The notes under the pieces: generated by a model
The model's input: only the letters and a program-made list of their open reading frames with translations
Database searches by the model: none
What the model was told of the DNA's origin: nothing
Position numbers and translations under genes: made by a program
Shown: piece after piece, positions 222 to 43,706 of the stretch
How the letters are laid out: every line of letters starts with the position of its first letter
Numbering within the stretch: the first letter of the stretch is position 1
DNA from: Niastella populi
GTDB taxonomy: Bacteria > Bacteroidota > Bacteroidia > Chitinophagales > Chitinophagaceae
Length of the DNA: 64,000 nucleotides
Assembly (NCBI RefSeq): GCF_002078015.1
Contig: NZ_LWBP01000001.1
Span: 434,001 to 498,000 of the forward strand
Reading direction: 5' to 3'

Positions 222-316
222 ATATGAGATTTCGGGATTTCGCGATTTAGGGATTTTGAGATTTGTCGTAAGACTTAATTCAAAAGAAATCTCAAAATCG
301 CGAAATCTCAAAATCA
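222..316. repeat. Intergenic inverted word array (GATTTTGAGATTT type)
   Basis: The gap between the OsmC-like gene and the first oxidoreductase holds repeated GATTT words. GATTTTGAGATTT at 252-264 is a perfect inverted match to AAATCTCAAAATC at 287-299. GATTTCGCGATT at 236-247 matches AATCGCGAAATC at 296-307. The loop is about 22 nt. The same words return at 23165-23280. Confidence 0.8.
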
Positions 317-402: not shown

Positions 403-1818
403 ATGTCCTCAAACAAACGAACCCGGCGCAGCTTTATCAAAAATGCCTCACTGGCCGCCGGCAGTTTCTTCATTGTGCCACGCCATGTATTAGGCCGGGG
501 CTATATTGCCCCCAGCGATAAACTCAATATCGCCGGCATAGGCGCCGGTGGCAAGGCCGAAGTGAATTTGCCCTACGCTTATAACAATGGCGCAGAGAAC
601 ATAACCGCACTTTGCGATGTTGACGACCGTATGGCGGTGAATGCCCGCAAAAAATGGCCGCAGGCGCCTTATTACCGCGACTACCGCGAAATGCTCGATA
701 AAGAACATAAAAATATCGACGCCGTAATTATTACCACTCCCGATCACATGCATGCCGTACAGGCCCTTGCAGCCATGCAGCTGGGCAAACATGTGTATGT
801 TGAGAAACCACTAACGCACGACATTTACGAGGCCCGCATATTAACGCAGGCCGCACAACAGTATAAAGTGGTTACGCAAATGGGTAACCAGGGCAGCAGC
901 GGTGATGACACCCGCATCGTGGAGACCTGGATCCAGGCAGGGGTGATCGGCAACGTACATACAGTGCATGTATGGACGAACCGCCCCGTTTGGCCGCAAG
1001 GCGTTCCAACGCCCACCGGTAAATTCGATATTCCGAAAGAAGTTGACTGGGACCTGTGGCTGGGCACTGCACCCTTCCGCGATTTCAATCCTGCTTATTT
1101 GCCCGCCACCTGGCGCGGCTGGGTCGATTTTGGTGCCGGCGCCCTCGGCGATATGGGCTGCCATTTTATTGACGTGCCGTTCAGGGCGCTGAAACTGGGA
1201 TACCCGGTATCGGTAGCCTGCAGTGTGGGTTCGGTATACACGGGTTTTTTCAGAGAAGCAATTTATAACGACAGCTATCCGCCTTCATCGAAGATCAATA
1301 TCCATTTTCCGGCCCGCGGGGAAAAAATGCCGCCGGTAGAGCTGATCTGGTACGATGGCGGTATACAACCCGATCGCCCCGCAGAGTTATTGCCCGACGA
1401 ACCTTTTGCCGGGCCAGACGGCGGTATCCTGTTTGAAGGAACAAAAGGCAAACTGCTGGCCGGGTTGTTTGGCCGCAATCCTACCTTGCTGCCGACACAA
1501 AAAATGAAAGAAGTAAAACTGCCCAAATCAAAATTTCCGTTTGTTGATAATGGAACAGAAGGTCACCAGACGCAATGGGTGCAGGCCTGCAAAAAAGGTT
1601 TCGGAACTTATACCAGTTCTTCCTTCGATGTGGCCGGACCGCTTACTGAAACCGTACTGATGGGCAACCTGGCAGTTAGAAGTTATAATATTAAAGAAGG
1701 AAACAATTTCCCCGGCCGTAAAAAGCTCCTGTGGGATGGTGCCAATATGCGCATCACCAATTTTGAAGCGGCGAATGCGTTTGTGAAGCGGGAGTACCGG
1801 CAGGGGTATAAGTTATAG
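403..1818 (+). CDS. Gfo/Idh/MocA family oxidoreductase, Tat-exported
   Basis: This 471-aa protein starts with a twin-arginine signal (T7-R8-R9-S-F-I-K) and a hydrophobic stretch ending near residue 30, so export by Tat is expected. A Rossmann start (IAGIGAGGKA, about residues 43-52) is followed by CDVDD (71-75). The family motif EKP lies at 134-136, where Lys is the presumed catalytic base in this family. A C-terminal GFO_IDH domain has the WRGW and MGCHFIDVP segments. Such proteins oxidise sugars or sugar-like alcohols with NAD(P); the substrate cannot be read from sequence. The gene is followed by a close paralogue in the same direction, suggesting a tandem duplication. No strong Shine-Dalgarno is seen, as is usual in Bacteroidetes. 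Confidence 0.9.
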   Translation: MSSNKRTRRSFIKNASLAAGSFFIVPRHVLGRGYIAPSDKLNIAGIGAGGKAEVNLPYAYNNGAENITALCDVDDRMAVNARKKWPQAPYYRDYREMLDKEHKNIDAVIITTPDHMHAVQALAAMQLGKHVYVEKPLTHDIYEARILTQAAQQYKVVTQMGNQGSSGDDTRIVETWIQAGVIGNVHTVHVWTNRPVWPQGVPTPTGKFDIPKEVDWDLWLGTAPFRDFNPAYLPATWRGWVDFGAGALGDMGCHFIDVPFRALKLGYPVSVACSVGSVYTGFFREAIYNDSYPPSSKINIHFPARGEKMPPVELIWYDGGIQPDRPAELLPDEPFAGPDGGILFEGTKGKLLAGLFGRNPTLLPTQKMKEVKLPKSKFPFVDNGTEGHQTQWVQACKKGFGTYTSSSFDVAGPLTETVLMGNLAVRSYNIKEGNNFPGRKKLLWDGANMRITNFEAANAFVKREYRQGYKL

Positions 1819-2010
1819 TTCTCAGTTCTCAGTTCACAGTTCACAGTTCACAGGTCTCGGTTATTCAGTTATTCAGTTATTCAGTTATTCAGTTTGTGAG
1901 TTGCCGGTTACCAGATACCTGTTTCCGGAAATGAGATCAGGCCCTTCGGGCTCCAATAACTTCGTCGCTTGTCGCCCTTCGGGCTCCAATAACTGAATAA
2001 CTGAATAACT
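1819..2010. repeat. Intergenic inverted word array (TTATTCAG type) with duplicated UUCG hairpin
   Basis: Directly after the first oxidoreductase come CAGTTCACAGTTC words, then four TTATTCAG words (1860-1893). A spacer with CGGTTACC and ACCTGTTTCCGG follows, and then the inverted arm AATAACTGAATAACT (1989-2010). The sequence GCCCTTCGGGCTCCAATAACT occurs twice (about 1941-1961 and 1973-1993); each copy carries a GCCC-TTCG-GGGC-like stable tetraloop hairpin. These could act as transcription terminators or mRNA 3' stabilisers, but no T-run is attached. Confidence 0.8.
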
Positions 2011-2253
2011 ATTTTGTTCGCATGCTTTGCTAAAAATATTTTAGTTAGAATCCAACGTAAATATTCATACCGGTTTTCTATTGCCCAACCCGCTGCAACA
2101 CTTTTCATCGAATTCCCGTCTGGTGTAATGCAAAAATATTTTTGCAAACCATTTGTTTAATTTCCTGACCGGGATTAAAAAGAATAAAGTAATTTAACTT
2201 GCTAAATCGGTTTAAATCTATACTTTCAGGCTTCTAAAATCAATGCTTACAGT

Positions 2254-3693
2254 ATGAAGAAGAACAAAAATAACAACCCTTCGTCGCGCCGGGATTTCCT
2301 TAAGAACACAACCCTGGCGGCCGCCGGTTTCTTTATTGTTCCCCGTCATGTATTGGGCAAAGGCTACATTGCCCCCAGCGACAAATTGAACATTGCCGGT
2401 ATTGGTGTGGGCGGAAAAGGTACCAGCGATCTTGCCTCGTTTGCCAAAAGTCCCAAAGTGAATATCGTTGCCCTGTGTGATGTCGATGATCGCCAGGCCG
2501 TGAAATCGCGCCAGAGTTTTCCCAACGCGCCCTACTACCGCGATTTCCGCGAAATGCTTGAGAAGGAAAAGAAAAATATTGATGCCGTTTGTGTATCTAC
2601 TCCCGATAACACACACGCCGTAGCTGCACTGGCTGCCATGCAACTCGGTAAGCACGTATATGTACAAAAACCTTTAACGCACGATATTTATGAAGCACGC
2701 ATTCTTACCGAAGCCGCAAAAAAATATAAGGTAGTTACCCAAATGGGTAACCAGGGCGGTTCAGATGATGGCGTTCGTAAAATGAAGGAAATGGTTGATG
2801 CCGGTTATATCGGCGATGTGCATACCGTGCATTGCTGGACGAACCGTCCCGTATGGCCGCAGGGCATTCCAACACCCAGCGGTTCATTCGAAGTGCCAAA
2901 AGAAGTTGATTGGGACCTGTGGCTCGGCCCCGCAAAAAAGATCGATTACAACCCTGCATACCTGCCATTCAACTGGCGCGGCTGGTGGGCGTTCGGTACC
3001 GGTTCACTGGGCGATATGGCCTGCCATATCATGGACCCCGTGTTCCGTATTCTTCCCATCGATTATCCAAGTTCGGTAGAGTGCAGTGTGGCTACCATTT
3101 ATAAGGAAATGTGGAATGACTATGTGAATCCCGATAGCTGTCCGCCTTCTTCCATCATGCACCTGACGTACCCACGCAAGGATAAAAAAGGCAATATCAA
3201 AGTTTCATGGCACGATGGCGGATTGTTGCCTGAGCGCCCCGAAGAACTGCTGCCCGAAGAAGCAATGGGTAACTGGGACGGCGGTGTTATTATGGAAGGC
3301 ACCAAGGGTAAGATCATGTGCGATTGTTATGGCGCCAACCCGCGGTTGCTGCCTACCAAACTGATGAAAGTAAAAGCGGTGCCTAAGGAAACCATCAAAC
3401 GTGTACCGGAAGGCCACTATATACAATGGGTGAACGCCTGTATGGAAGGCTATGGCAAAGGCGTAACCAGTTCACCGTTCGAATATGCCGGACCGTTCAC
3501 AGAAAGCATTTTGATGGGTAACCTCGCCATTCGCAGCTTCCTCATGAAGAACCCGAATGCCAAAGGCGAAAACAGGTATCCGGGCAGAAAACGTTTGGTG
3601 TGGGATGCAAAAAATATGAAGATCACGAACTTTGAAGAAGCCAACCAGTTTGTGAAGAGAGAATATCGTGATGGCTGGAACCTGAGTTTATAA
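2254..3693 (+). CDS. Gfo/Idh/MocA family oxidoreductase, Tat-exported (paralogue)
   Basis: This 479-aa protein is a clear paralogue of the upstream gene: Tat motif SSRRDFLKN (residues about 10-18), Rossmann IAGIGVGGKG, CDVDD, and the same MGNQG, WTNRPVWPQG and WRGWW segments. The family EKP motif reads QKP here (VYVQKPLTHD), so the Glu of the motif is replaced while the catalytic Lys stays. The protein is predicted to be exported and to act on a sugar-derived substrate with NAD(P). It is about 435 bp downstream of its paralogue, with a repeat-rich gap between, so a single transcript is possible but not shown. Confidence 0.9.
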   Translation: MKKNKNNNPSSRRDFLKNTTLAAAGFFIVPRHVLGKGYIAPSDKLNIAGIGVGGKGTSDLASFAKSPKVNIVALCDVDDRQAVKSRQSFPNAPYYRDFREMLEKEKKNIDAVCVSTPDNTHAVAALAAMQLGKHVYVQKPLTHDIYEARILTEAAKKYKVVTQMGNQGGSDDGVRKMKEMVDAGYIGDVHTVHCWTNRPVWPQGIPTPSGSFEVPKEVDWDLWLGPAKKIDYNPAYLPFNWRGWWAFGTGSLGDMACHIMDPVFRILPIDYPSSVECSVATIYKEMWNDYVNPDSCPPSSIMHLTYPRKDKKGNIKVSWHDGGLLPERPEELLPEEAMGNWDGGVIMEGTKGKIMCDCYGANPRLLPTKLMKVKAVPKETIKRVPEGHYIQWVNACMEGYGKGVTSSPFEYAGPFTESILMGNLAIRSFLMKNPNAKGENRYPGRKRLVWDAKNMKITNFEEANQFVKREYRDGWNLSL

Positions 3694-3793
3694 ATTATTC
3701 AGTTATTCAGTTCGTTAGTTCTGAGCGTAGGTAAATAAACCTGTACCCGGAATTAATGAACTGAATAACTGAACAACTGAATAACTGAACAAC
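3693..3793. repeat. Intergenic inverted word array (TTATTCAG type)
   Basis: The convergent gap holds the left arm ATTATTCAGTTATTCAG (3694-3710), a spacer containing ACCTGTACCCGGAA, and the right arm CTGAATAACTGAACAACTG (from 3761). The spacer resembles that of the array at 1819-2010 (ACCTGTTTCCGGAA). The right arm runs into the TAA stop of the minus-strand gene at 3794. Confidence 0.8.
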
Positions 3794-4717
3794 TTATTCG
3801 TTTTCCGTATCTGTAGTATCAGTATCTGACGTGTCGGGTTTCTCTTTCTCGGTAATCAACTCTGCCAGCGTAAGCAATTCCTTTTGCTTGTAGTTGTTCT
3901 TCTCATCAGTAAAGCATTTGCTGAACTCCTCCATTAAAAACTGGATCACCCGTTTGTTCGAAAGTTGTTTGAAGTAGGTGGCGGAAGGCGCTACGTTGAT
4001 GCGTTTGAAGTAATTCTCTACGTCTTTATGCGTGAATACCTGACCGCTCATGGGATCTATAAAGAATTCCGTTTTGTACAACGGGTTCTCTACATGACGG
4101 GTAAAATCGTAGTCGGTTTTAAAATAACCCAGCACAAACTGGTGCGGAATATTGATTGCACGAACCGGCACATCGAGCAGTTCGCACAGGATCAGGTATA
4201 AGATCCCGTTGGCAATTGTATTACCGCGTTTCGTTTCAAGCTGCTTGTTTATCAGGAACTCTTCGGGGTTCTGATAACCTATTTCCGCACCCCGTAAATT
4301 GAAATAATTGTAGAGAATACTGGTTACCACATTTACCTGCTCGAGGGGAGTGAGGTAACTGTTCAGTTCCAGCCAGATGTTCCGTCTTAATTTTTCAACT
4401 TCCTGGTAAACCTGTGAGGTCACCAGATCGGGATACTGAAAGCGCGCAACCAGTAATGCGCCAGTGAGCAGGTCCTGGTGAATATTGTTATTCCATTGCG
4501 TTAATTCCTCTGTGAGATCGCGATAATGTAACCGGTGTATCAACATTTCAATACGTTCCTGTACATCTTCGCTGATGGTGTTCTCCCACAGATTTTCAAG
4601 GTTAGGTATGATGCCTTTTCCATAATCTATTATGCGGGTAGAGACCACATTGAAGACCTCTTCATCGGGATCATCAATTAAATGGAACAATGCCGATATC
4701 TCTTTGTTTTCTTCCAT
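3794..4717 (-). CDS. SirB1-like transglutaminase-fold protein
   Basis: This 307-aa soluble protein starts with a HEAT-like helical segment (LFHLIDDPDEEVFNVVSTRI) typical of the SirB1 N-terminal family. A transglutaminase-core-2 region follows (LRRNIWLELNSYLTPLEQVNVVTSILYNYF, then RGNTIANGILYLILCELLDVPVRAINIPHQFVLGYF). The usual catalytic Cys before the helix is not obvious, whereas His and Asp candidates are present (IPHQFVLGY; FFIDPMSGQ), so enzymatic activity is doubtful. The acidic Thr/Asp-rich tail (DTSDTDTTDTENE) is low complexity. Function of this family is not established; it is often annotated as transglutaminase-like. It is convergent with the second oxidoreductase. Confidence 0.75.
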   Translation of the reverse strand: MEENKEISALFHLIDDPDEEVFNVVSTRIIDYGKGIIPNLENLWENTISEDVQERIEMLIHRLHYRDLTEELTQWNNNIHQDLLTGALLVARFQYPDLVTSQVYQEVEKLRRNIWLELNSYLTPLEQVNVVTSILYNYFNLRGAEIGYQNPEEFLINKQLETKRGNTIANGILYLILCELLDVPVRAINIPHQFVLGYFKTDYDFTRHVENPLYKTEFFIDPMSGQVFTHKDVENYFKRINVAPSATYFKQLSNKRVIQFLMEEFSKCFTDEKNNYKQKELLTLAELITEKEKPDTSDTDTTDTENE

Positions 4718-15766: not shown

Positions 15767-15779
15767 AGTTGCTAAATAG

Positions 15780-16045
15780 AATTGAAAAGTACAAAAATGG
15801 GAAATTAAAAATGAGAAATGACAAATGAAAAATTAAAAAGGGAATACAGGGCTTGTGGTTTCGGCTGTATTTCACTTTTCAAATAGAAAAGGGGCTGATC
15901 GTTCAGCCCCTGCAACATAATCATGTAGTTTATTAATGTGATCGATAATTGGATAATGTGATAATTGAATACAACCCCAATGCGCGATTGCCGATAATTC
16001 GCATGAGCCGCGATATGTAGCATTATCAAATTATCACATTAGCTA
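15780..16045. repeat. Intergenic word array (GATAATGTGATAATT type) with terminator inside
   Basis: The gap holds GAAATTAAAAATGAGAAATGAC words at its left end, GGAATACA at 15841-15848, and the terminator at 15890-15911. GTGATCGATAATTGGATAATGTG words (from about 15936) are matched by the inverted arm ATTATCAAATTATCACATTAGC up to the next stop codon at 16047. A further GAATACA occurs at about 15967. Confidence 0.7.
15885..15911 (-). terminator. Intrinsic terminator for the outer membrane barrel gene
   Basis: AGGGGCTGA (15890-15898) and TCAGCCCCT (15903-15911) form a perfect 9-bp stem with a 4-nt loop. Read on the minus strand it is followed by TTTTCTATTTG, so it terminates transcripts arriving from the gene at 16047-18692. 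Confidence 0.8.
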
Positions 16046-16046
16046 A

Positions 16047-18692
16047 TTATTGTTGTATTCCCTGCATTCCATTCTGCATACCTTCCGCATCGCCGCGCAT
16101 GTTCTTGCGTTTGAACAGGGCCACATCGAATTTTCCAAAACGGTAGCTGAAGTTTACGCGTACAAGCTGGGGGTCTCTTCTGCGCCAGTCGTCCTGTATA
16201 AAGCCCGTTGCTTCGGAGTGTACAAAATACTTACGGCTTCTGAAGATATCGCTCCAGTTCACCGATATGGTCGCTGTGTTCTTTTTTATCTGGAAGTCTT
16301 TACGCAAACCCATATCAACACCATAGAAGGGATTTACATAACCCTGGGTTGTTGATGTTGGCCCGCCGCCAAAACCGCCCCGGCCGCCGCGGCCACCGCC
16401 GCCATCACCATTATTGCTTGTGCTTACGGGTAAGGCGCTCTTTGCCTGGTAATCGCCACTAAGCTGAAAGCTCCAGCCTTTGTTGAATTTAAAACTGTGG
16501 TTCATTTTGGCCGTCCAGCTGGTGCGTTCATTTTCCAGGTTTTTCACCACATTGCTGCCGTTGATCTTTGAATAATAGATGTTGGCGCTTGTTGTTACAT
16601 CCCACCATTTGGTAAGCGTGTTACGGGAGATTAGCTCAAGACCGCCGGCGTAAGCTGTAGAGGCGTTTATATAGGTCGTTATCCATACCGAATCGGGCCT
16701 TGCTTCCACTTTACCCATGTACTGGTAGCGGGCAATGAGGTCTGTAGTATATTTCCCGAAAAGCGTTGCCAGGAATGTGTTGGTTTTTTTACCGTAAGTT
16801 TTCTGGTAAGAGAGCTCGAGCGAATGCGTGAACTCAGGCTTCAGCCCCGGGTTACCGGTTTGATAGTTAAGGATATCGGTATAATCGGTATTGGGCATTA
16901 ACTGGAAGAAGTTAGGCCGGTTAATGCGTCGGGTGTAGTTTAACTGCATGTCCTGTTTGTGCTCGAACTGCTTGCTCAAAAATACACTGGGGAACAGGCT
17001 GATGGGAAAATCGTTGGTGTAGGTATCTTTACCAATTTGTTTTCCTTCGTAACCACTGCTTTCGCCCCGTAAACCCAGCTGATAGCTGAATGTTTCTTTT
17101 ATCTTTTGCGAGTAAGTTACATAACCTGCATACACATGGTCGGTATATTCAAAATTATTACCAACCGGGGGAGTGCCGTTATTGAAGGTGTTATACTGAA
17201 AACTTTCGAATTTGCGTACCTGGGCGCGGAGGCCGGCTTCCCACTTGATTTTATCGTTAATGGGATTTATATAATCTGTTTGTGCTATCAGGAACCGGTT
17301 TTTTCCGCCGGCGTCAACTCTTTGAAGGATCTCAAAATTGTCAATGGGAACTGTCATGTCAAGATCATAGAACGAACGGTCGCGGATGTCGCTGTAGTTT
17401 GTGTTCCTGCTTTGGTTGAAGTTCAGGTCAGCGGTCCACTCTTTGCCAGCTTGCGCAAAAAGGTGTTTGAAACTTAACTGTGTACCATAGTTGCGGAAAT
17501 TGTTTTTACCGGTGGTATTACGATACTGGGCGTACGAGCCGCCAATTGAATCGTATACGAAGTTGGTACGGTTATCTGGTTTGAAGTCTCCATTCACGAT
17601 TGACTGCGAGATCGAAATAGTATTGCGGTTGTCGATGAAATAATCCAAACCGAACCGGCCGAATGCAAAAGCGCCATCGAACACGCTCTTGTTGTATTGT
17701 GTGGTATACAGGTCTTTGGTGTTTTTTCCGAAGGTGAACCTGTCGGTTTGTCCCCAGCCTTTTGATCTGCGCTGGTTGTACATGGCGTTGGCAAATACGT
17801 TGATCCTGCCCTGGCGAACGTTGATATCGCCGCCGCCGTTGAACTTACCGCGGGAATCGACACCGGCGCGTACACTGCCGTTATAACCGGTTTTGCGGTT
17901 CTTCTTTAATATGATATTCAGAATGCCCGACTGGCCCCCGCTGGCGTCGTATTTGGCTGAAGGGTTGGTGATAATTTCAACGCTCTGAATGGCATCGGCC
18001 GGGATCTGGTCCATAGAAAGGGTAGTGGGGCGGCCGTCTACAAACACCTGCGGCGCTGCGTTGCGCAGGGTTACGTTCCCGTCAATGTCGACGTTGATGG
18101 AAGGTACATTGCGCATGACGTCGATGGCTGTACCCCCGGCGGCCGTAATGGTTTTTTCCACGTTGAAGATCTTGCGGTCAACACCCATGGTGATGAGGGG
18201 TTTTGAACCGGTAACGGTTACATCCTGCAGCACGGTAGCGTCCTGTTCCATTTTTAAATTACCGAGGTCTTTATCAACCGCCGATAACATGGCCGACCTG
18301 TCGACCCCCGGGCCCATTTTTAAATCGAACGATACCTTTTGTTCAATGGGTTTATAACCGATGGCTGTAATGATCAGTTTGAACTGGCCGAAAACGGGCA
18401 GGCCTTCGAGGCTGAAATCGCCGTTACGGCCGGTTAGCATTCCGCCGATCACCACATCGGCCTTTTTTTTGGTGGCGGTATCGAATTTGTTCTGGAATAA
18501 TTGAACAGAAGCGGCATCCAGTCCTTTATTGGTTGCCTTGTCGACTATACGTCCGTAAAAATGGCCGATATTCATTTGCTGGCCGCCGCCCTGCCGGTTT
18601 CCGCCGCCCGGGGCGCCTCCTGCGCCGGGAAATTGGGCATGGGCAGTTTGGAAAAGGGCAAATAGAGCAAGGATCCATCCGGTAAGTTTCAT
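16047..18692 (-). CDS. TonB-dependent-receptor-like outer membrane beta-barrel protein
   Basis: This 881-aa protein begins with a signal peptide (MKLTGWILALFALFQTAHAQ) and a Gly/Gln-rich linker. A carboxypeptidase-regulatory-like repeat (GRIVDKATNKGLDAASVQLF, about 45-125) comes next, then a plug region (TVTGSKPLITMGVDRKIFNVEKT; QVFVDGRPTTLSMDQIP; VEIITNPSAKYDASGGQSGILNI) and an OMP beta-barrel domain to the C-terminus. The last barrel strands are RFGKFDVALFKRK-like and a Met/Gln-rich tail (GMQNGMQGIQQ) follows. The ligand is unknown; this barrel type is common in Chitinophagaceae. The last codons (GIQQ) include GGAATACA on the minus strand, joining the repeat array. Confidence 0.87.
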   Translation of the reverse strand: MKLTGWILALFALFQTAHAQFPGAGGAPGGGNRQGGGQQMNIGHFYGRIVDKATNKGLDAASVQLFQNKFDTATKKKADVVIGGMLTGRNGDFSLEGLPVFGQFKLIITAIGYKPIEQKVSFDLKMGPGVDRSAMLSAVDKDLGNLKMEQDATVLQDVTVTGSKPLITMGVDRKIFNVEKTITAAGGTAIDVMRNVPSINVDIDGNVTLRNAAPQVFVDGRPTTLSMDQIPADAIQSVEIITNPSAKYDASGGQSGILNIILKKNRKTGYNGSVRAGVDSRGKFNGGGDINVRQGRINVFANAMYNQRRSKGWGQTDRFTFGKNTKDLYTTQYNKSVFDGAFAFGRFGLDYFIDNRNTISISQSIVNGDFKPDNRTNFVYDSIGGSYAQYRNTTGKNNFRNYGTQLSFKHLFAQAGKEWTADLNFNQSRNTNYSDIRDRSFYDLDMTVPIDNFEILQRVDAGGKNRFLIAQTDYINPINDKIKWEAGLRAQVRKFESFQYNTFNNGTPPVGNNFEYTDHVYAGYVTYSQKIKETFSYQLGLRGESSGYEGKQIGKDTYTNDFPISLFPSVFLSKQFEHKQDMQLNYTRRINRPNFFQLMPNTDYTDILNYQTGNPGLKPEFTHSLELSYQKTYGKKTNTFLATLFGKYTTDLIARYQYMGKVEARPDSVWITTYINASTAYAGGLELISRNTLTKWWDVTTSANIYYSKINGSNVVKNLENERTSWTAKMNHSFKFNKGWSFQLSGDYQAKSALPVSTSNNGDGGGGRGGRGGFGGGPTSTTQGYVNPFYGVDMGLRKDFQIKKNTATISVNWSDIFRSRKYFVHSEATGFIQDDWRRRDPQLVRVNFSYRFGKFDVALFKRKNMRGDAEGMQNGMQGIQQ

Positions 18693-18920: not shown

Positions 18921-19247
18921 TGTTAGCTGGCAGAAAACGAGGAAAATCTGTTAGCGCGGTATCCGCGCTGACAGAAAATGAGCGAAATCTGTTAGCGCGG
19001 TGTTCGCGCTGACAGAAAATGGGCGAAATCTGTTAGCGCGGTGTTTGCGCTGACAGAAAATGAACGAAATCTGTTAGCGCGGTGTTCGCGCTGACAGAAA
19101 ATGTACCCGCGCTGACAGAAAATGGGCAAAATCTGTTAGCGCATTGTCTGCGCTGACAGAAAATGGATGAAATCCGATAGAATGGTACCGGCGCTGACAG
19201 AAAATGAAGGGGAGCTGACAGCCTGGTGACGACGCTAACGGAAAATG
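18921..19247. repeat. 41-bp-period tandem hairpin array
   Basis: The core GCGCTGACAGAAAATG occurs exactly at 18965, 19006, 19047, 19088, 19109, 19150 and 19191. Degenerate copies start at 18924, 19212 and 19232. Steps are 41, 41, 41, 41, 21, 41, 41, with a half-step copy (19212) before the last. CTGTTAGCGC (18948, 18989, 19030, 19071, 19133) pairs with GCGCTGACAG in each unit, giving hairpins with a 7-nt loop. The array lies in the 610-bp gap upstream of the barrel gene and after the DUF445 gene. The rest of the gap shows no gene. Confidence 0.9.
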
Positions 19248-20037: not shown

Positions 20038-20112
20038 GGAGGATGAAGGGTCTCGAACCCTCGACCTCTAGAACCACAATCTAGCGCTCTAACCAACTGA
20101 GCTACAACCTCC
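20038..20112 (-). tRNA. tRNA-His (anticodon GTG)
   Basis: The minus strand reads G-1 GAGGTTG, the D arm GCTC-AGTTGGTTA-GAGC, the anticodon arm CTAGA-TTGTGGT-TCTAG, the T arm GAGGG-TTCGAGA-CCCTT and the acceptor CATCCTC. The anticodon is GTG, i.e. His. The extra G-1 pairs with C73, as expected for His. The acceptor stem has one T-T mismatch (position 5-68). CCA is not encoded. A -7-like TACATTTG lies just upstream (minus, 20125-20132). Confidence 0.95.
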
Positions 20113-23164: not shown

Positions 23165-23280
23165 ATTTTGATTTCTGATTTTGAGATTTAGAGATTTGTA
23201 ATTGCAGAATGCCGTTGTGGATGTAGTAAACCTCAAAATTAAGAAATCCCGAAATCCAACAATCCTAAATCAGAAATTGT
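23165..23280. repeat. Intergenic inverted word array (GATTTCTGATTTTGAG type)
   Basis: GATTTCTGATTTTGAGATTT (about 23169-23188) faces inverted words: CCTCAAAATT, GAAATCCCGAAATCC, and CCTAAATCAGAAATT just before the next start. The words are the same family as at 222-316, over 22 kb away. Confidence 0.7.
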
Positions 23281-24229: not shown

Positions 24230-24819
24230 ACACAAAGGGCTTCCGTATAATACTGGCTTCTCAATCGCCACGCCGTAAACAATTACTTGAATGGGCAGAA
24301 ATTCCTTTTGAAGTGATGGTGCAGTCTACCCCTGAAACTTACCCGCCCGATATGGCGGTGCCCGAAGTGCCGGTTCATATAGCCCGCGAAAAAGCGTTTG
24401 CCGTAAAACAAAAGAACGAATCGCTGCACCATGCCGGCAATATCATTATTGCCGCCGATACCGTGGTGGTGCTGGGTAATGACATCATTGGCAAACCGAA
24501 AGACAGGGAAGAAGCGCTGGATATTCTTGGCCGCCTGTCGGGCAACAAACACCAGGTAATAACGGGAGTGGTATTGCTGAAAGGAGATCGGGAGATAGCC
24601 TTTGCCGATATTACCGAAGTGTGGTTTCACCCACTTACCAGCGAACAGATCGCTTTTTATGTAGACAAATACAAACCGTACGACAAGGCCGGCGCCTATG
24701 CCATACAGGAATGGATTGGGGTGATAGGCATTAAATCAATTCAGGGAGATTTTTATAATGTAATGGGGCTGCCCGTTAGCAGGGTAGTTGAACAATTAGC
24801 TAATTTGCTGATTAGCTAA
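24226..24819 (+). CDS. maf: Maf family nucleotide pyrophosphatase
   Basis: This 197-aa protein starts with IILASQSPRRKQLLEWAEIPFEV, the Maf signature. It contains ADTVVVLGNDIIGKPKDREEA and AGAYAIQEWIGVIGIKSIQGDFYNVMGLPVSR, typical of the dTTP/UTP-pyrophosphatase (YhdE) type. It hydrolyses non-canonical or excess nucleotides to the monophosphate. The gene begins inside the end of the UbiA gene, so the two are translationally coupled. The last codons (LANLLIS) are encoded by word repeats of the array that follows. Confidence 0.92.
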   Translation: MNTKGFRIILASQSPRRKQLLEWAEIPFEVMVQSTPETYPPDMAVPEVPVHIAREKAFAVKQKNESLHHAGNIIIAADTVVVLGNDIIGKPKDREEALDILGRLSGNKHQVITGVVLLKGDREIAFADITEVWFHPLTSEQIAFYVDKYKPYDKAGAYAIQEWIGVIGIKSIQGDFYNVMGLPVSRVVEQLANLLIS

Positions 24820-24953
24820 TGTGCTAATGCTGCTATTTCCGCGAGCCTGATAATTCCCAGACATCTGCACCAAAAGCTGTATTTAATTAGCACATTATCA
24901 CATTAGCATATTAGCACATTGGTATTCATTATCGAATTATCACATAATTTTGT
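24797..24953. repeat. Intergenic inverted word array (GCTAATGTGCTAATG type)
   Basis: The left arm (TTAGCTAATTTGCTGATTAGC from 24798) overlaps the 3' end of maf and supplies its stop codon. After a spacer of about 60 bp the inverted arm AATTAGCACATTATCACATTAGC follows, then ATTAGCACATTGG. The gap continues to 25119 with no gene. Confidence 0.8.
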
Positions 24954-25119
24954 TATCTTAGATGTATAAAGGTCTGCTATTGTATCCGTTCTGTTTTGTA
25001 GTAATTTTTGATAACTATCTCTGTTAGTAAGTCGCTCTGTTCAGTAGCATAACATGCAGGTTGGGAATTCTTCAGTTTCCGAACATGTGCATATTGTTTA
25101 ATTTTCATTGCTATCTTAT

Positions 25120-26445
25120 ATGACAGAAAGGCTTTTGCAATACCTCTGGCAATTCCAGTATTTTAATAAAGACGGCCGCGTGCTCGATAATGGCGATGCC
25201 TTCCAGGTTATTCATCCCGGGCGCTATAATACCAACCAGGGCCCCGATTTCCTCGAAGCAAAGATCAAAATTGAAAATACATTATGGGTGGGGCATGTTG
25301 AGTTACATGTAAGAACCTCCGACTGGTTCAGGCATGCTCATCAATTCGATCGCAACTACGATAATGTGGTTTTGCATGTGGTTTGGGAGAACGATCTGCC
25401 CAACAGGGAATCGCGCATCCCCGTTTTCTCATTACAGTCGAAAGTACCCGCAATGTTATTGAGCCAGTATGAGCACTGGATGAACAATCCGGGTTTTATC
25501 GCCTGCGGCAGCCAGGTGCAGGATGTTTCGCGCATCATCTGGTTTTCCTGGCGCGAGCGGCTGCTGGCAGAACGGATGCAAAGAAAATCGGCAACGGTAT
25601 TTTCTTTCCTGTTACAAACCAATCAGCATTGGGAAGAAACTTTCTGGTGGCTGCTGGCGCGCAACTTTGGCGCTGTGCTGAACTTCGAACCTTTTGAGGC
25701 CCTGGCCAAAACACTGCCTGTTACACTGCTGGCCCGGTATAAAAACCAATTGCCAAAACTGGAAGCATTGTTGTTTGGGCAGTGCAGGTTGCTGGAGGGC
25801 GATTTTGAAGAAGATTACCCGGCTATGTTACAACGTGAGTACCTGCATTTAAAGGCAAAGTATAAACTGCAGCCGGTAAAGCAGGCCGTTCACTTTTTAC
25901 GTACGCGGCCGGTCAATTTTCCCACAGTCAGGCTGGCCCAGCTGGCCATGCTGCTGCATTGCTCAAACCACCTGTTTGCGTTTATCAAGGATACCGTAAG
26001 GCTTAACGATATAAAAGAGTGGCTGTCGGTAACCGCCAGTTCGTTCTGGGACAATCATTATACGTTTAACAAGGCTTCGGTTCACCGGCCCAAAAAGCTG
26101 GGCAGCCAGATGATCGATACGGTCATTATCAATTCGGTAGTGCCCGTACTGTTTGCTTACGGCCTGCTGCATAATGAAGAACTGTTTAAGAACAGGGCAC
26201 TGAATTGGCTCGACGAACTGGAGCCGGAAACGAATTCGGTAACGAATGGTTATGCAGAACTGGGTGTTGTAAATAAAAGCGCCTGCGACTCCCAAGCCCT
26301 GCTTGAGCTCAAAAGCCATTATTGCGATGCCAGGAAATGCCTCGATTGTGCAGTGGGCAATGCATTATTGAAAAGATCCGCTGCCGTTGAAACGCCGGTT
26401 TCAACGGCACGGCTTACCCGTGACGAATTCCTTATTTCAGCTTAA
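25120..26445 (+). CDS. DUF2851 family protein
   Basis: This 441-aa soluble protein starts MTERLLQYLWQFQYFNKDG and continues with NTNQGPDFLEAKIKIENTLWVGHVELHVRTSDW, the DUF2851 core. The HVELHVRTSDW segment resembles restriction-endonuclease-like folds, but this is only a resemblance. Four Cys near the C-terminus (CDSQ, CDARKCLDC) may bind metal. The start at the ATG 25120 is chosen; an upstream TTG would add four residues. Function unknown. Confidence 0.85.
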   Translation: MTERLLQYLWQFQYFNKDGRVLDNGDAFQVIHPGRYNTNQGPDFLEAKIKIENTLWVGHVELHVRTSDWFRHAHQFDRNYDNVVLHVVWENDLPNRESRIPVFSLQSKVPAMLLSQYEHWMNNPGFIACGSQVQDVSRIIWFSWRERLLAERMQRKSATVFSFLLQTNQHWEETFWWLLARNFGAVLNFEPFEALAKTLPVTLLARYKNQLPKLEALLFGQCRLLEGDFEEDYPAMLQREYLHLKAKYKLQPVKQAVHFLRTRPVNFPTVRLAQLAMLLHCSNHLFAFIKDTVRLNDIKEWLSVTASSFWDNHYTFNKASVHRPKKLGSQMIDTVIINSVVPVLFAYGLLHNEELFKNRALNWLDELEPETNSVTNGYAELGVVNKSACDSQALLELKSHYCDARKCLDCAVGNALLKRSAAVETPVSTARLTRDEFLISA

Positions 26446-27274
26446 CCTGTTTGGGTTACATAACTGTTTTCTCACCAAAAAACTGCCTTTGATAAAAAGG
26501 AAGCTGTCGCCTGCTATCTGCCAATTCCAAACCTGCATATTTATTATGATCGGATGCGTCAACCACCTGAACTTAATATTCAATAAAACACAGGCTACCG
26601 GTATTGAAATGAATACGTTAGGCGCCTGACATACGCCGGTTGCGGCGGTTCAGCGGGCAACGGGCCGGGTTATTTCTTATGGATGTATTTTAACAATTTG
26701 AAAGGAAGCTACTATGAACAGGGCCTAATAAAAGAGAGTCATCCACTCCTGGTGGATGACTCTTAGCCAGCATTCATAGACATTGGCGGGCTCTTCATTT
26801 AAGGATATTCGGGTTACCTGCTAAACAGGTAGTAACGAGGTTCTTATTCAACATAAGAATGCCTTGATATTCAAGAGCAGATCAAAATTGTTTATGTATA
26901 AATAAGAAACCCGGTACATGGTTTTACAAAGTGTATTTCTGAACTAAAACGAAAAAACAAGCTTCGTTCCGTGCAATGCACAGCGCGTCAATTATGTCAA
27001 AACAAAATGTATTCGGAACTGCTTTTTATGGGTGGTAGCACAGCGCCTTTACAAATCAAGAGCTCAGGAAAAGGTCGCATTTAATAAATTCATGTTTACC
27101 TCACTAAAATCATTCCTATCTTTTTATTTCAGTAAAAAAATGTAAATGATCAATTATAGGATGGCCTATAAACACAAGCATTATGCCATCATTATTTTCT
27201 ATTAGCAGTTGTTCTCATATTCAAACTGCTGAGGTTTATTACATTTATTTCTCAATACCTGATTCAGCCCGGGA
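26446..27274. other. Long gap without a recognisable gene
   Basis: No ORF with family resemblance or coding-like composition was found between the DUF2851 gene and the TonB receptor. The only clear structure is the hairpin at 26735-26763. The rest is AT-rich with scattered short repeats. Confidence 0.6.
26735..26763 (-). terminator. Perfect 12-bp hairpin in the long gap
   Basis: AGAGTCATCCAC (26735-26746) pairs perfectly with GTGGATGACTCT (26752-26763). On the minus strand it is followed by CTTTTATTA, so it could terminate leftward transcripts from the TonB receptor gene, more than 600 bp away; on the plus strand no T-run follows. Confidence 0.5.
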
Positions 27275-27398
27275 AATACCTGATTTGATAATTTGTTAAT
27301 CCCGACTAAAGCCGGGACAATTTGTGATAATTTGATAATACCCGACAGCCTGCTTTGGCAATTGTATTCCATTATCAAATTATCGAATTATCACTTTA
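27275..27398. repeat. Intergenic inverted word array (TTGATAATTTG type)
   Basis: TTGATAATTTGTTAATCC and GTGATAATTTGATAATACC (27285-27346) face the inverted arm ATTATCAAATTATCGAATTATC (27371-27392). The minus strand carries GGAATACA at 27363-27370. The arm runs into the stop codon of the receptor at 27399. A separate hairpin (CCCGACTAAAGCCGGG) lies inside. Confidence 0.75.
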
Positions 27399-29840
27399 TC
27401 ACATTGACCAAACGAGCGGGATGTTCAGTTTGATGCCAAAGTTCCGCCCCATACTGAATACGCCGGTGCGGCCGGTAACATTATTGACCGCTGCATATTT
27501 CAACCGGCTTAAGTGATTTTGATAAGCCACATCGCCAAGGTTGTAGGCGGTGAACCGCAAACTGAACCGCGTTTTTCCCTTCTGTACGAAATCTGCGCCG
27601 ATGCCCGCATTGATCAGCCAGTAACCGGGGGTTGCGGTTTCGGTATCGAACCCGGTAAAAGGATCATCCTGTTTGAAGGTATAATCGCTCTCGAGGTTGA
27701 TGTGCAGGTTGCGAAGCGTTTTGCCTTTGGGCATCAGGCTTACTGCCAGGTCGGTAAACAGCCGTGCCGCCGGAATGAACGGAATATTCTTTGTGCCATC
27801 CACCGCCTCGGTGAACCGGGCCCGCGTATACGAAAATGCATTTCTGAAATGCAGCCAGTCGAGCGGGTGGGGGTGGATATCGAGCGCCAGTTCTACACCA
27901 TACAGGTTGGCATCTTTCTGGTCAAAACGGTAAACTCTTAATTCATCACCGGTTTCATCGTCGATCTGTATGCTATCTTCACCTGCATCGTTCAATACTT
28001 TCTCGTAGAAGATGAAATCCTGAATGCGATTATAGAACAGGCTGGTCTCCAGTGAAAGGTGCTCCGAGTTCAGTTCAAATCCTCCATCAACCTGTAAACT
28101 GGTTTCTGATTTCAGCTTGTTATCACCGAGCTCAAACCGGTTGGTACCTTCATGTGCGCCGTTGCTTGCCAGTTCGGCGAGGTTGGGCGCCCTGAAACCG
28201 CGGGCTACATTGAGCTTTAAAGTAACCAGGTCGCTGGCGGCATAACTAAGCCCCACGCTGCCCGATACATTGCTGAAATTGCGTGAGAAGCCGGCAAACT
28301 TCAGCTCGTTATCGATGTCCATCGCTTTACCGTTTACATGCCGGGTATCGAAACGCAGACCGCCGCTGAGCGATATTTTATTCTTATGATAATGAGTAAA
28401 TACAAAACCGCCGATATCGAACAGGTCGTAATCGGGGATGATCACTTCTTCGCCTTTGTTGGTATTGGTTTGCGACATACCATTAACCCCAAGGGTTGTT
28501 TTCCAGTGTTGGGTAGAAGGTAGATGCCAGCGAACCGCATAATTAACGGTTTTAAGATCGAACCAGGCATCGGGAGTGGCGGCGTCATCGGGATTGCCGA
28601 ATTCCTGCCGCTGGTTTTGCTGATAACCTGCCTGCACGTCGATACTTCCTTTGCCTGCGGCGAAGTTGTTGTCGGAAGCGATCTTGAAATGTTTGATATG
28701 CTGAAACGGAACTTCGGGGGTTATTTTTTTGAAATCCTCGTTTGAGGCAATGCCTTCATCGCCGCCGGGCAATGCTTTTAAAAAGGCTCCCGTAGCGCTG
28801 TCGCGTTCGCCCTCCACCATTCCTATACGCTGCCCGAAATTGCTTATCAGCACATGGCTGTAACCCCAGGCGCCGCTGTACCCCAGCATACCGCCGAAAT
28901 TCTGGTTATAGAATTTAGAATTGAATACCCGGCCATCATACTTGTTCTTGTAATCCTGCGCGCCTTTGTACGAACCATATGCATTCCAACTGAAGCCATT
29001 CTTTGTACCGGCCACGTCGCCATAGAAACCACGCAGGGCGTTATTGGTCTGGTATTCGCCCAGCACATTGGCGGTAATATGTCCCTCGGCTACCGGCCGT
29101 TGCGAAATGATATTGATCACCCCGGCCAGCGCATCGCTGCCATACATGAGGGAGGCGGGCCCTTTCAACACTTCAACCCGTTGCATGCTGTAGTCGTCAA
29201 TTTCGATCCCATGTTCATCGCCCCATTGCTGACCTTCCTGGCGCACACCGTCGTTGATGGTAACAACGCGGTTGTAACCTAAACCGCGGATAAAGGGTTT
29301 TGTAATGGCCGGACCCGTTGACAATCCGCTTACGCCCGGCACCGTTTTGCTCAGCGCGTCGATGGCATTGGTAGAAGAAACGTTGAAGAGTTGTTCTTTC
29401 TTTAAAACATCAACCGGTTGCGGCGATTGCCTGATGCGGGTAGCCGATGAAACGCCGGTAACGGTTACCTCTTCGTTCTCAACCACTGCTTCTTTCAGTG
29501 CAAAATCTTTTTGTGTATCGCCATTTATCCTGATATTCTCAATGATGGAAGAATATCCCCGGTACGTGATCTCAACCAGGTAATTGCCGGCATTCAGGTT
29601 CCCAATGCGAAACTCGCCTTTATCGTTCGAGATGGTCCCTTTCTTCAGGTCGTGGATATAAATGCTGGCGCCGGGTAATATTTCGCCGGTTTTGGCATCG
29701 GTGATCTTCCCGCTGAACACCCCGGGCTGTGGCGCAATAACCGGAACAGGTTGATTACCGGCGGTAAGGTTCTGCTGGCTATAGCCAATTAAACCAACCA
29801 ATGTATATATAAATGTAAGGATCGCATTTACTGGTTTCAT
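27399..29840 (-). CDS. TonB-dependent receptor
   Basis: This 813-aa protein starts at the ATG 29840 (MKPVNAILTFIYTLVGLIGYSQ, a signal peptide). The ORF remains open another 34 codons upstream, but these are word repeats. A carboxypeptidase-regulatory-like domain (GKITDAKTGEILPGASIYI) is followed by the plug (VTGVSSATRIRQSPQPVDVLKKEQ, KPFIRGLGYNRVVTINDGVRQEGQQWGDEHGIEIDDYSMQRVEVLKGPASLMYGSDALAGVINI) and a 22-strand-type barrel. The plug type resembles metal or siderophore receptors, including zinc and copper receptors. The upstream small gene is probably in the same unit. Ligand not determined. Confidence 0.9.
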   Translation of the reverse strand: MKPVNAILTFIYTLVGLIGYSQQNLTAGNQPVPVIAPQPGVFSGKITDAKTGEILPGASIYIHDLKKGTISNDKGEFRIGNLNAGNYLVEITYRGYSSIIENIRINGDTQKDFALKEAVVENEEVTVTGVSSATRIRQSPQPVDVLKKEQLFNVSSTNAIDALSKTVPGVSGLSTGPAITKPFIRGLGYNRVVTINDGVRQEGQQWGDEHGIEIDDYSMQRVEVLKGPASLMYGSDALAGVINIISQRPVAEGHITANVLGEYQTNNALRGFYGDVAGTKNGFSWNAYGSYKGAQDYKNKYDGRVFNSKFYNQNFGGMLGYSGAWGYSHVLISNFGQRIGMVEGERDSATGAFLKALPGGDEGIASNEDFKKITPEVPFQHIKHFKIASDNNFAAGKGSIDVQAGYQQNQRQEFGNPDDAATPDAWFDLKTVNYAVRWHLPSTQHWKTTLGVNGMSQTNTNKGEEVIIPDYDLFDIGGFVFTHYHKNKISLSGGLRFDTRHVNGKAMDIDNELKFAGFSRNFSNVSGSVGLSYAASDLVTLKLNVARGFRAPNLAELASNGAHEGTNRFELGDNKLKSETSLQVDGGFELNSEHLSLETSLFYNRIQDFIFYEKVLNDAGEDSIQIDDETGDELRVYRFDQKDANLYGVELALDIHPHPLDWLHFRNAFSYTRARFTEAVDGTKNIPFIPAARLFTDLAVSLMPKGKTLRNLHINLESDYTFKQDDPFTGFDTETATPGYWLINAGIGADFVQKGKTRFSLRFTAYNLGDVAYQNHLSRLKYAAVNNVTGRTGVFSMGRNFGIKLNIPLVWSM

Positions 29841-29852
29841 AATCTGAGTTAT

Positions 29853-30053
29853 AATTAGCTGATTAGCTAATGTGCTGATGTGCTGATGTAATAATTCGTT
29901 AATTCGATAATGTGGTGATTCTCTAATGTGATGATATGCCAATTGAAAATACGATAGTGGAAAACAACCTGCAGACAGGGCTTTGCGAAACCACTGGTGA
30001 GGCCTAAAAGGGATGTATTAGCACATTAGCAAATTATCACATTAGCACATTGG
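29853..30053. repeat. Intergenic inverted word array (GCTAATGTGCTGATG type)
   Basis: Left words TTAGCTGATTAGCTAATGTGC (29854-29874), GATGTGCTGATG and TTCGATAATGTGGTGATT face the right arm TATTAGCACATTAGC (30017 on), AAATTATCACATTAGCACATTGGC. The right arm encodes the last five residues (ANVLM) and the stop codon of the small gene at 30037. Confidence 0.8.
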
Positions 30054-30372
30054 CTATTGGGGGCGCGCGAAGGGAATGGAAGTATTTGCTTACAGCCGGA
30101 ATAACAAAAACAGGGCCGGTGTGCGGTTGGCGCACTATAATTACCGGGGCCAGAATTTCGGGGATGGAAGTTTCAGTGAGCGGCAGGTTGAAATCGTTGA
30201 TACAACCGCAGGTTAACTGTAATTCCTGGCTTGAAGTGGGTTTTGAAGATGCGGCGTGCTGTTTGGAGCCGTGTAACCAGTTGTGCATGAACAAACTCAT
30301 ACCCATTTTCTGGCTGAACACGAGGATCAGTGCCAGGGTAACGAGCTTTGTTATAATGCGGTTACATCTCAT
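30037..30372 (-). CDS. Small membrane-anchored protein linked to the TonB receptor, unknown function
   Basis: This 111-aa protein begins with a hydrophobic segment (IITKLVTLALILVFSQKMGMSLFMHNW), a possible signal anchor. A short His/Ser/Gln-rich region follows, then a CGC motif in LTCGCINDFNLPLTE and a SLRAPP motif near the C-terminus. I recall proteins of this layout beside TonB receptors in Bacteroidetes, and the Cys pair and His residues suggest metal binding, but no function is established. The last five residues and the stop are encoded by repeat words. A TACATTTG promoter lies 7 bp before the start codon. Confidence 0.6.
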   Translation of the reverse strand: MRCNRIITKLVTLALILVFSQKMGMSLFMHNWLHGSKQHAASSKPTSSQELQLTCGCINDFNLPLTETSIPEILAPVIIVRQPHTGPVFVIPAVSKYFHSLRAPPIANVLM

Positions 30373-30378
30373 GAGTTA

Positions 30379-30411
30379 CAAATGTAGGCAAATTTGCAAC
30401 AATAGGGCAAA
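30379..30411 (-). promoter_or_regulatory. Promoter of the small gene/TonB receptor unit
   Basis: On the minus strand TTTG (plus 30408-30411), a 21-bp spacer and TACATTTG (plus 30379-30386) match the Bacteroidetes housekeeping promoter. The transcription start would fall at about 30372-30374, so the mRNA is nearly leaderless. Confidence 0.6.
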
Positions 30412-30414
30412 AGA

Positions 30415-30573
30415 CAATGAGCTAATGTGCTGATTAGCCCAAGTGCTAATGGAAATGCGATAATGTGATAATTCGGTAATGGAATACAGTTCGCCAGGCA
30501 GCCTGATGCCATTGATCGAACATCCTGCAATGAAAGTATTAGCACATTAGCACATTATCCCACTAGCAAATTA
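30415..30573. repeat. Intergenic inverted word array (GCTAATGTGCTGATTAGC type)
   Basis: AATGAGCTAATGTGCTGATTAGC (30417 on), GTGCTAATGG and GATAATGTGATAATTCGG face the inverted arm TATTAGCACATTAGCACATTATCCC. GGAATACA lies at 30481-30488, just after the left words. The right arm ends at the HxlR stop codon (30574-30576), which is provided by the word TTATCAAATT. Confidence 0.8.
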
Positions 30574-30918
30574 TCAAATTCTGTTCTTATCTCCCCAGTC
30601 ACTCAAACTCTCGAGAATGGGTTTCAGCGAGTTGCCTTTGGCCGACAACTCATATTCAACCCGCGGCGGCACTTCGGCATACACGATCCGGTTGATCAGC
30701 CCATCTTTTTCCATTTCACGCAATTGCAATACCAGCATTCTTTCGGTAACATTGGCAATGGAATCGCGGAGTTCGCTGTACCGCATTTTTCCGCGGGCCA
30801 GCCGCCAAAGGATGGCGGGTTTCCATCTGCCGCCGATCGCGGTGAGTGTATACGACATGCCGCAATCTTTTTCGAGGTGTTGTTTGTTAAGGGTATTGGT
30901 TGAATTCTCCTTTCGCAT
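30574..30918 (-). CDS. HxlR family transcriptional regulator
   Basis: This 114-aa winged-helix protein has the HxlR pattern: a Cys near residue 19 (EKDCGMSYTLTAIGGRWKPAILWRLARGKMRYSELRDSI), then NVTERMLVLQLREMEKDGLINRIVYAEVPPRVEYELSAKG. The single Cys at the N-terminus is where HxlR regulators often sense thiol-reactive electrophiles. It is transcribed divergently from an SDR and probably controls it. Confidence 0.92.
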   Translation of the reverse strand: MRKENSTNTLNKQHLEKDCGMSYTLTAIGGRWKPAILWRLARGKMRYSELRDSIANVTERMLVLQLREMEKDGLINRIVYAEVPPRVEYELSAKGNSLKPILESLSDWGDKNRI

Positions 30919-43598: not shown

Positions 43599-43601
43599 GG
43601 C

Positions 43602-43706
43602 ACAAGGCTAAAGGCTAAAGGCATAAAGCTACAGGCTAAAGGCATAAGGCGTAAGGCGTAAGGCTAAAGGCATAAGGCTAAAGGCATAAAGGCAGAAGGC
43701 AGAACC
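43602..43706. repeat. Intergenic word array (AAGGCTAAAGGCATAAGGC type)
   Basis: After the OmpA stop, about 100 bp consist of AAGGCTAAAGGCATAAGGC variations, all in one orientation without a visible inverted arm. The words are related to GCTTAAGGC at 8246-8290. The gap to the helicase start also contains the helicase promoter and leader. Confidence 0.75.

Follow-up and report, generated by a model that had tools for sequence, protein, structure and literature searches.

Inverted arrays of short, degenerate words occupy gaps between genes in a 64,000-nucleotide stretch of a Niastella genome (hereafter the window, i.e. positions 434001-498000 of contig C1 of the draft genome G000, 8.6 Mb, Chitinophagaceae). 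Each element consists of a left array of 7-8-base words, a mostly unique spacer, and a right array in which words of the same type are inverted. We propose, tentatively and with a confidence somewhat short of even, that these elements belong to a class of inverted word arrays at gene ends throughout the genome, which would be made and renewed by DNA copying and would serve as gene-end stem-loops. The closest named relatives of the source genome are Niastella caeni and Niastella yeongjuensis, also of the Chitinophagaceae.

Inverted word arrays in the window

A preliminary description of the window had claimed word arrays with inverted arms for five gaps, and such arrays were found in all five by k-mer, hairpin, and strict inverted-pair methods. 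The strict inverted-pair filter passes three of them (the 15.9k, 24.8k, and 29.9k elements), and the 27.3k and 30.4k elements were caught solely by the looser k-mer and hairpin methods. The arms and one enclosed hairpin are as follows.

15942..15966, + strand: left arm of the 15.9k element, GATAATTT-type words
16020..16049, - strand: right arm of the 15.9k element; pairing coordinates 16020-16044; ends in the stop codon (16047-16049, read on -) of an outer-membrane barrel gene
24794..24829, + strand: left arm of the 24.8k element, GCTAATGT-type words; overlaps the stop codon (24817-24819) of a Maf-like gene
24884..24924, - strand: right arm of the 24.8k element; additional words up to about 24942
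27300..27317, no strand assigned: ordinary GC hairpin TCCCGACTAAAGCCGGGA amid the two word blocks of the 27.3k element; + side shown, without T run
27326..27339, + strand: left arm of the 27.3k element; 14 bases, perfect complement of 27371-27384
27369..27402, - strand: right arm of the 27.3k element; contains the stop codon (27399-27401, read on -) of a TonB-dependent receptor gene
29854..29914, + strand: left arm of the 29.9k element; 13 bases upstream of the receptor gene start (29840)
30015..30055, - strand: right arm of the 29.9k element; overlaps the end of a small gene (30037-30372, read on -)
30413..30480, + strand: left arm words of the 30.4k element; best pairing in 30413-30434, array in 30451-30480
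30535..30576, - strand: right arm of the 30.4k element; pairing coordinates 30535-30565; ends in the stop codon (30574-30576, read on -) of an HxlR-type regulator gene

The hairpin inside the 27.3k element indicates that arrays and ordinary hairpins can share one gap. In the named gaps the inverted arms are of the same word type, as had been stated, and the arms are more complementary than shuffled controls. RNA folding z-scores, obtained for each stretch against 200 dinucleotide shuffles, ranged from -2.2 to -5.5 for whole elements in these gaps, i.e. -4.4 for 24797-24945 (+), -5.5 for 27275-27405 (-), -3.0 for 29841-30060 (-), -2.5 for 30440-30580 (-), and -2.2 for 15930-16050 (-). The two single arms of the 29.9k element, each folded alone, reached just -1.3 and -1.1, and the one gap that was folded as DNA (30405-30585, +) gave a z-score of -1.9. 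With the strict filter, 22 inverted arrays were detected across 598 kb of the genome, compared with none in one 3-mer shuffle. A search of the window against Rfam 15 at gathering score returned a single match, a tRNA at 20038-20111, and left the arrays unmatched.

Four more inverted arrays lie in the window, none with a strand assigned.

225..316: GATTT-type words; arms 225-265 and 286-316; passes the strict filter
1813..2014: AGTTCAC and GTTATTCA words; arms 1813-1902 and 1985-2014; passes the strict filter
3690..3797: AGTTATTC-type words; spans the whole of convergent gap 3694-3793, reaching both stop codons; passes the strict filter
23172..23265: GATTT-type words; arms 23172-23200 and 23236-23265; passes the looser filter only

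The array at 3694-3793 is the strongest stem among those folded in the window, with z-scores of -10.1 (+) and -9.1 (-). At 18926-19247, in the gap beside the outer-membrane barrel gene, there is a nested tandem repeat whose basic unit is 41 bases, with higher-order units of 62, 103, and 144 bases, unlike the 7-8-base arrays. A long lone array of AAGGCTA-type 7-base words, for which no inverted partner was detected, lies between two co-directional genes at 43595-43709.

Vocabularies and abundance

The words of the named gaps had been taken for a single family of GCTAATGT/GATAATTT words. The arrays themselves are real, but the definition was too narrow: this genome has at least a dozen 7-8-base vocabularies of the same design, and these words make up one of them. 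In total, 427 non-coding array segments were identified in the gaps of 1.40 Mb of this genome, with a best period of 7 in 231 and of 8 in 128, a number that bears out the amplification suggested in the preliminary description. Arrays inside genes (n = 323, from this genome and from G005, a second genome of the genus) favour periods of 9 (140) and 6 (57). Among the vocabularies, which were grouped by eye, GTTT(A/G)TG, G(A/C)T(A/G)AT(G/T)T, GGT(C/G)AAT, AACGCTT, and AAGGCAAC are frequent.

Strict inverted pairs number 39 in 1400 kb of this genome (27.9 per Mb), and 35 of the 39 are non-coding. Elsewhere in the genus, 11 were found in 480 kb of G005 and 2 to 5 per stretch of 76-80 kb in seven further species. 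Sequences of other genera yielded five in 1206 kb, with none in the 271 kb of Chitinophaga included therein, and there were none in 100 kb of Escherichia coli K-12. The word GCTAATGTGCTGATG, searched with at most one mismatch, has 58 copies in this genome, 0 to 266 copies across nine other genomes of the genus, and 0 to 2 copies across 19 genomes of other genera. Three of the nine genus genomes (one of them incomplete) had no copy. An inverted array in L012, from a Sphingobacteriales metagenome-assembled genome, is built of 9-base words (CCACTAAGACAACAAAGACC...); the design is therefore not restricted to 7 and 8 bases.

Inverted pairing and fixed polarity

When the outermost arrays of 211 gaps were picked regardless of pairing, an array's own inverted partner ranked in the top 5% in 90 gaps (10.6 expected), compared with 25 in the same-direction control. 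Adjacent arrays of one gap were inverted-similar in 44 and direct-similar in 27 of 181 cases in this genome, and in 16 and 2 of 43 cases, respectively, in G005.

Each word family has a fixed polarity, such that the G/T-rich strand reads into the gap from both sides. Relative to the gap, the polarity of word-sharing element pairs agreed in 334 cases and disagreed in 23 (the pairs are not independent); 12 of the disagreeing pairs were inspected and are mostly matches across different families, two of them including an arm that is itself palindromic. In co-directional elements the left arm is G/T-rich, with G-C pairs outnumbering C-G pairs (437 vs 158) and T-A pairs outnumbering A-T pairs (627 vs 529). 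The inward strand is G-rich both in start-adjacent arrays (G>C in 34 and C>G in 6 of 48) and in stop-adjacent arrays (111 and 20 of 138, respectively), indicating that polarity does not follow the direction of transcription.

Three consecutive GTTT(A/G)TG words (at most two mismatches) occur in 17 of 149 genomes of the class, the source genome included, which alone has 450 matches; a reversed-word control in the 149 genomes gave mostly 0 to 2 matches, yet 18 in one genome. Of 15 stretches from six of these genomes, read by eye, seven (L289, L291, L292, L293, L294, L300, and L302) contain a G-strand array of this family and after it, within about 215 bases, a C-strand one; in none of the 15 does the family occur in the opposite order. 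In L290 and L298 a C-labelled array precedes a G-labelled one, but the words there are of other families and the gene limits are uncertain.

A sub-vocabulary specific to each element was considered and rejected: the mean partner rank of arms picked by pairing (0.287, 92 elements) is inflated by that choice of arms, and the rank of array-defined arms in a family-restricted comparison (0.435, 128 gaps) is close to 0.5.

Position relative to genes

Genes were called with our own codon-usage script in 1.40 Mb of this genome and 0.48 Mb of G005, which contain 1068 gaps of 30 to 900 bases. By gene orientation, the gaps with arrays number 68 of 167 (convergent), 227 of 695 (co-directional), and 39 of 206 (divergent); strict inverted pairs are found in 16 of the convergent, 33 of the co-directional, and 1 of the divergent gaps. 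The first base of the stop codon lies within the array at 95 of the 365 gene 3' ends that have an array at most 200 bases away; for start codons, the corresponding figure is 22 of 265. Mean periodicity at 163 gene ends is about 0.25-0.3 deep within the gene, 0.45 at the stop codon, and 0.79 ten bases beyond it; at 49 gene starts, comparable values are found no closer than about 11 bases.

Stops occur in the array words themselves, which could draw the ends of open reading frames into arrays. In a comparison of nine species, 44 of 54 stops located in arrays (other stops, 204 of 224) are no more than 2 residues from the modal protein end, and 29 of 54 (others, 182 of 224) coincide with it; the array boundary is thus largely, not wholly, an old gene end. 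TAG stops are enriched at array-adjoining gene ends (53/163 vs 281/1407 in all genes, p = 6e-5). The idea that the word supplies the stop codon nevertheless remains speculation, since stop type was not seen to vary with word family (p = 0.62). In 76 stop-adjacent arrays, stripped of their first 9 bases, 227 stop triplets were counted against 166.7 +- 9.6 in shuffles, and 109 antisense triplets against 98.0 +- 7.2; the surplus triplets may be back-up stops, a suggestion on which we do not build.

Differing vocabularies at orthologous gaps

Of the two proteins that converge on gap 3694-3793, the left one has the same end in all nine species, and the right one varies in length. The words found in this gap include AGTTATTC, AGTTAACT, AGTTCAAA, AATATTGA, and others; six species have an array without a canonical hairpin, two have a canonical hairpin without an array, and one has both. 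Vocabulary differs even between sister species with a protein identity of about 90%.

A tendency of the two arms to change vocabulary together, in line with what the preliminary description had implied, is supported by 10 orthologous gaps and 101 species pairs from the nine species. For arms chosen for complementarity, similarity within an element was 0.282 and that of the same arm between species 0.105 (72 pairs for, 26 against, and 3 ties). For arms taken without regard to pairing, the values were 0.192 and 0.125 (50 pairs for and 39 against), and 7 of the 10 gaps pointed in the same direction. At gap 15767-16046, the spacers of genomes G003 and G001 have a 41-base stretch in common (90% identity), and both arms hold different though related words. 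An array directly upstream of a Y1 transposase gene (see below) has both arms composed mostly of AATG words in five species and mostly of AATC words in three, so that the arms agree in all eight (the search patterns used for counting differed slightly between the arms). These comparisons suggest that orthologous gaps often have different vocabularies in different species, with both arms of an element tending to use the same one.

A search for a shared core in the spacers of 102 elements gave 32 match rows, several of which are array words. A shared mobile core was therefore dropped as a candidate; the exceptions are a GCTGCCGCGCTTTGAG-type stretch among GTTTATG elements and the spacer shared by G003 and G001.

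Pairing of the arms and possible origin of the arrays

The first explanation offered for these elements was that of RNA hairpins kept paired by selection, through letter-by-letter compensating changes. The folding scores given above and the joint change of vocabulary in the two arms are in line with this explanation, but the mismatches between arms are not. In 77 co-directional elements, 54 G-U and 62 A-C mismatches were counted, whereas 130 canonical terminators of the same genomes have 62 and 14, respectively (Fisher p = 1e-6 against the arrays). Because the terminators show a G-U surplus, the comparison can see selection at the RNA level where it is present, and letter-by-letter compensation of a paired RNA stem finds no support in the arrays. 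Shuffling of word order within arms lowers pairing little (combined p = 0.47 in 87 of 102 elements, the rest being unsuitable, with ties counted against). A mid-p version gave means of 0.374 for 70 co-directional elements (Kolmogorov-Smirnov p = 0.004) and 0.421 for 15 convergent elements (p = 0.34), an excess that carries no evidence because the elements had been picked by pairing score. Word order between arms is thus at most weakly matched. Together with the family-restricted partner rank, which is close to that of random partners, these results make selected RNA hairpins an improbable explanation.

The main reason for the match between arms is their common word family: within a family, every word pairs with every inverted word, and complementarity therefore survives without a fixed register or order. 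Such arrays could arise if slippage multiplied one 7-8-base word into an array and if hairpin template switching, or copying from gap to gap, then placed those words in the opposite arm and at further loci. In an excerpt of PMC8794818, intrastrand template switching is predicted to yield more G-C and U-A pairs, and the arms of the co-directional elements fit this prediction in both pair types (G-C over C-G and T-A over A-T, as counted above). The polarity, which is genome-wide and shared across genera, follows from neither slippage nor template switching alone; it would need descent of the families by gap-to-gap copying, or a factor that binds the words.

The cluster of GCTAATGT words in the window prompted a comparison of vocabularies by region. 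Regional spread was rejected as a candidate: among 259 array gaps of this genome, sharing within 20 kb was 0.069, compared with 0.067 after permutation. In the 75 gaps of G005, the values were 0.086 and 0.057, with the former under the permuted maximum of 0.098.

Relation to terminators and putative function

In convergent gaps of 60-150 bases, canonical terminators were present in 40 of 71 gaps without arrays, in none of 11 with arrays, and in 1 of 15 with inverted arrays (p = 1e-6). In co-directional gaps of this size, the corresponding numbers were 43 of 270, 1 of 38, and 2 of 18 (p = 0.04). This set includes orthologous gaps, and the gaps are thus not all independent. On these distributions, arrays in short gaps may work like two-way gene-end stem-loops. 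A long imperfect stem-loop would form on either strand in short convergent and co-directional gaps, and would act as a two-way gene-end element (a transcription stop and/or a barrier to 3' exonucleases) that replaces the GC hairpin and T run.

The arrays nevertheless fall outside the family of intrinsic terminators. Their location at gene 3' ends fits that family, as seen from the counts of strict inverted pairs in convergent, co-directional, and divergent gaps, but the stem shows no surplus of G-U pairs of the kind expected of an RNA and is seldom followed by a T run (at least 5 T in 8 bases after the 3' arm in 2 of 23 convergent and 12 of 77 co-directional elements).

The rarity of T runs is also one of several observations that weigh against the proposed gene-end function. 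The lack of a G-U surplus in co-directional gaps speaks against selection for an RNA stem, and canonical terminators have the reverse polarity (G-C 323 vs C-G 424). In gaps of 150-420 bases, exclusion is weak: terminators occur in 28 of 47 convergent gaps without arrays and in 10 of 24 with arrays, and in 87 of 276 and 32 of 144 co-directional gaps, respectively. Exclusion in short gaps could partly result from lack of room, and an array stands beside a conserved canonical terminator in gap 15767-16046. Only one orthologous convergent gap of the window (3694-3793) is informative about replacement of a terminator. In 3 of the 10 orthologous gaps compared without regard to pairing, the orthologous arms were more alike than an element's own two arms. 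Copying between gaps also lacks support, as near gaps share vocabulary no more than far ones.

Some of these observations are those expected of neutral or selfish repeats, by which slippage and template switching would fill unconstrained intergenic DNA, and the preference for gene ends would reflect weak constraint past stop codons and stronger constraint on promoters. The arrays carry no signature at the RNA level, occupy the space up to the stop codon and halt about 11 bases short of starts, turn over fast between species, and coexist with canonical terminators in longer gaps. This explanation is possible, but we consider it doubtful, since canonical terminators are nearly excluded from short convergent gaps with arrays and appear to be replaced at gap 3694-3793, and since a fixed polarity per family is not expected from neutral slippage.

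If, as we prefer, the arrays serve as gene-end stem-loops, they might even form a separate class of bacterial gene-end elements in which the design and not the sequence is conserved. Such a class would be built of polar, degenerate 7-8-base words that point into the gap from the two gene ends and pair in any register; vocabularies would be exchanged between species at the same gap, families would extend across scattered Bacteroidia, and the elements would replace intrinsic terminators and be renewed by DNA copying. We regard this wider proposal as rather unlikely at present. Replacement of terminators by arrays would be a natural case of a function kept while the sequence, and even the vocabulary, is swapped between sister species, with pairing independent of register, and programs that identify terminators by a GC stem with a T run would overlook many of the gene ends here. 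The polarity rule and the joint change of the arms also open a direct way to study how inverted repeats are produced and renewed in bacteria, whether by slippage, template switching, or copying between loci.

Y1 transposase loci

The preliminary description had also raised a mobile element. The arrays could be the ends of such an element if they were moved by a transposase such as a Y1 protein resembling the transposases associated with repetitive extragenic palindromic (REP) sequences, known as RAYTs. One strong Y1_Tnp gene is present in each of 10 genomes of the genus, and an inverted array lies directly upstream of the Y1 gene in eight of nine Niastella loci. In these nine species the gene is a single-copy, IS200-like Y1 transposase gene (L239 2755-3210 and its orthologs in L240-L247; the upstream array is absent in L247). 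It is flanked by genes that, from their translations, we take to encode DAHP synthase/chorismate mutase and an AroB-like protein.

Outside the genus, a survey of 28 loci of Y1 relatives (stretches L255 and L256 were left out) found no array beside the gene and a strict inverted array in only one locus (L265), about 1.2 kb off the gene; orthologs in the same aro operon have no arrays there. A second Y1 family has an inverted array beside the gene in none of seven loci, the spacers are not conserved as those of a miniature inverted-repeat transposable element would be, and arrays are common in such gaps anyhow. Transposition of the RAYT/REP type was therefore dropped, and an element mobilized in this way is hardly probable at all.

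By eye, other Y1 genes, from other genera, in L267, L269, L270, L271, L272, and L274 are flanked by GGCTAAAGCC-type palindromes that look like ordinary REPs. In the source genome, a dispersed, REP-like or terminator-like palindrome, AGGTGTGCCACAC...GTGTGGCACACCT, was found repeatedly, in L128 (10413-10474 and 11674-11721), L136 (13471-13519 and 16861-16910), and L138 (19394-19444).

Comparison with known systems

No description of inverted polar word arrays was recognized in the open-licence literature, which cannot show that none is in print. The comparisons below refer to excerpts of the papers cited.

The TAACTGA direct repeats of Beggiatoaceae, Cyanobacteria, and five Bacteroidetes (PMC4679880) are likewise intergenic tandem words of 7 bases with a scattered distribution, and the array vocabulary AATAACTG contains the same letters. 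They consist of one word, are direct repeats (with one indirect among 170 sets), and are located mostly just upstream of start codons. In contrast, the arrays comprise many words and have a fixed polarity, their inverted pairs exceed direct ones, and they are located mainly at gene 3' ends.

The uptake-signal pairs of Neisseria and Pasteurellaceae (PMC1852404) resemble the arrays in that a dispersed word forms inverted pairs, and thus stems, downstream of genes in a preferred orientation. These pairs lie in terminators and are formed by one nearly exact word per genus, in very many copies, with a single copy per arm and a T tail, whereas the arrays are tandem and degenerate, belong to many families per genome, and rarely have T runs. 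The likeness bears on the possibility that a protein, either of an uptake machinery or a gene-end factor, recognizes the words, which would explain both their polarity and their location at gene ends. Recognition of this kind seems very improbable to us, since a genome has at least a dozen vocabularies and not one exact word, the words are degenerate and tandem, and their occurrence across the class is patchy.

REP palindromes of the GTAG and CGTC super-families (PMC3733652) are also located between convergent and unidirectional genes, and their ends often supply the stop codon. They are palindromes of 20-40 bp of one sequence type, in which G-T pairs have been read as support for an RNA function; the arrays are made of tandem words, have no G-U surplus, and showed no link to RAYTs in the comparison of Y1 loci. 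Hairpins made by template switching (PMC8794818) arise by a DNA mechanism that makes and repairs inverted copies and predicts more G-C and U-A pairs, a surplus also present in the arrays. They are described for RNA genes with matched arms, whereas the arrays have tandem words in an order that is at most weakly matched, and a genome-wide polarity. The tandem repeats of Borgs (PMC9879509) are, like the arrays, recent and fast-changing, with a strand bias in composition, and some start at the end of an open reading frame. They differ in having perfect head-to-tail units (18-21 bases in the examples), about half of which lie in open reading frames, and inverted pairs are not described in the excerpt. 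The nearest published kinds are the TAACTGA heptamers, the uptake-signal pairs, and the REPs, and as far as these excerpts go none of them combines many vocabularies, degenerate tandem words, inverted arms, and a fixed polarity.

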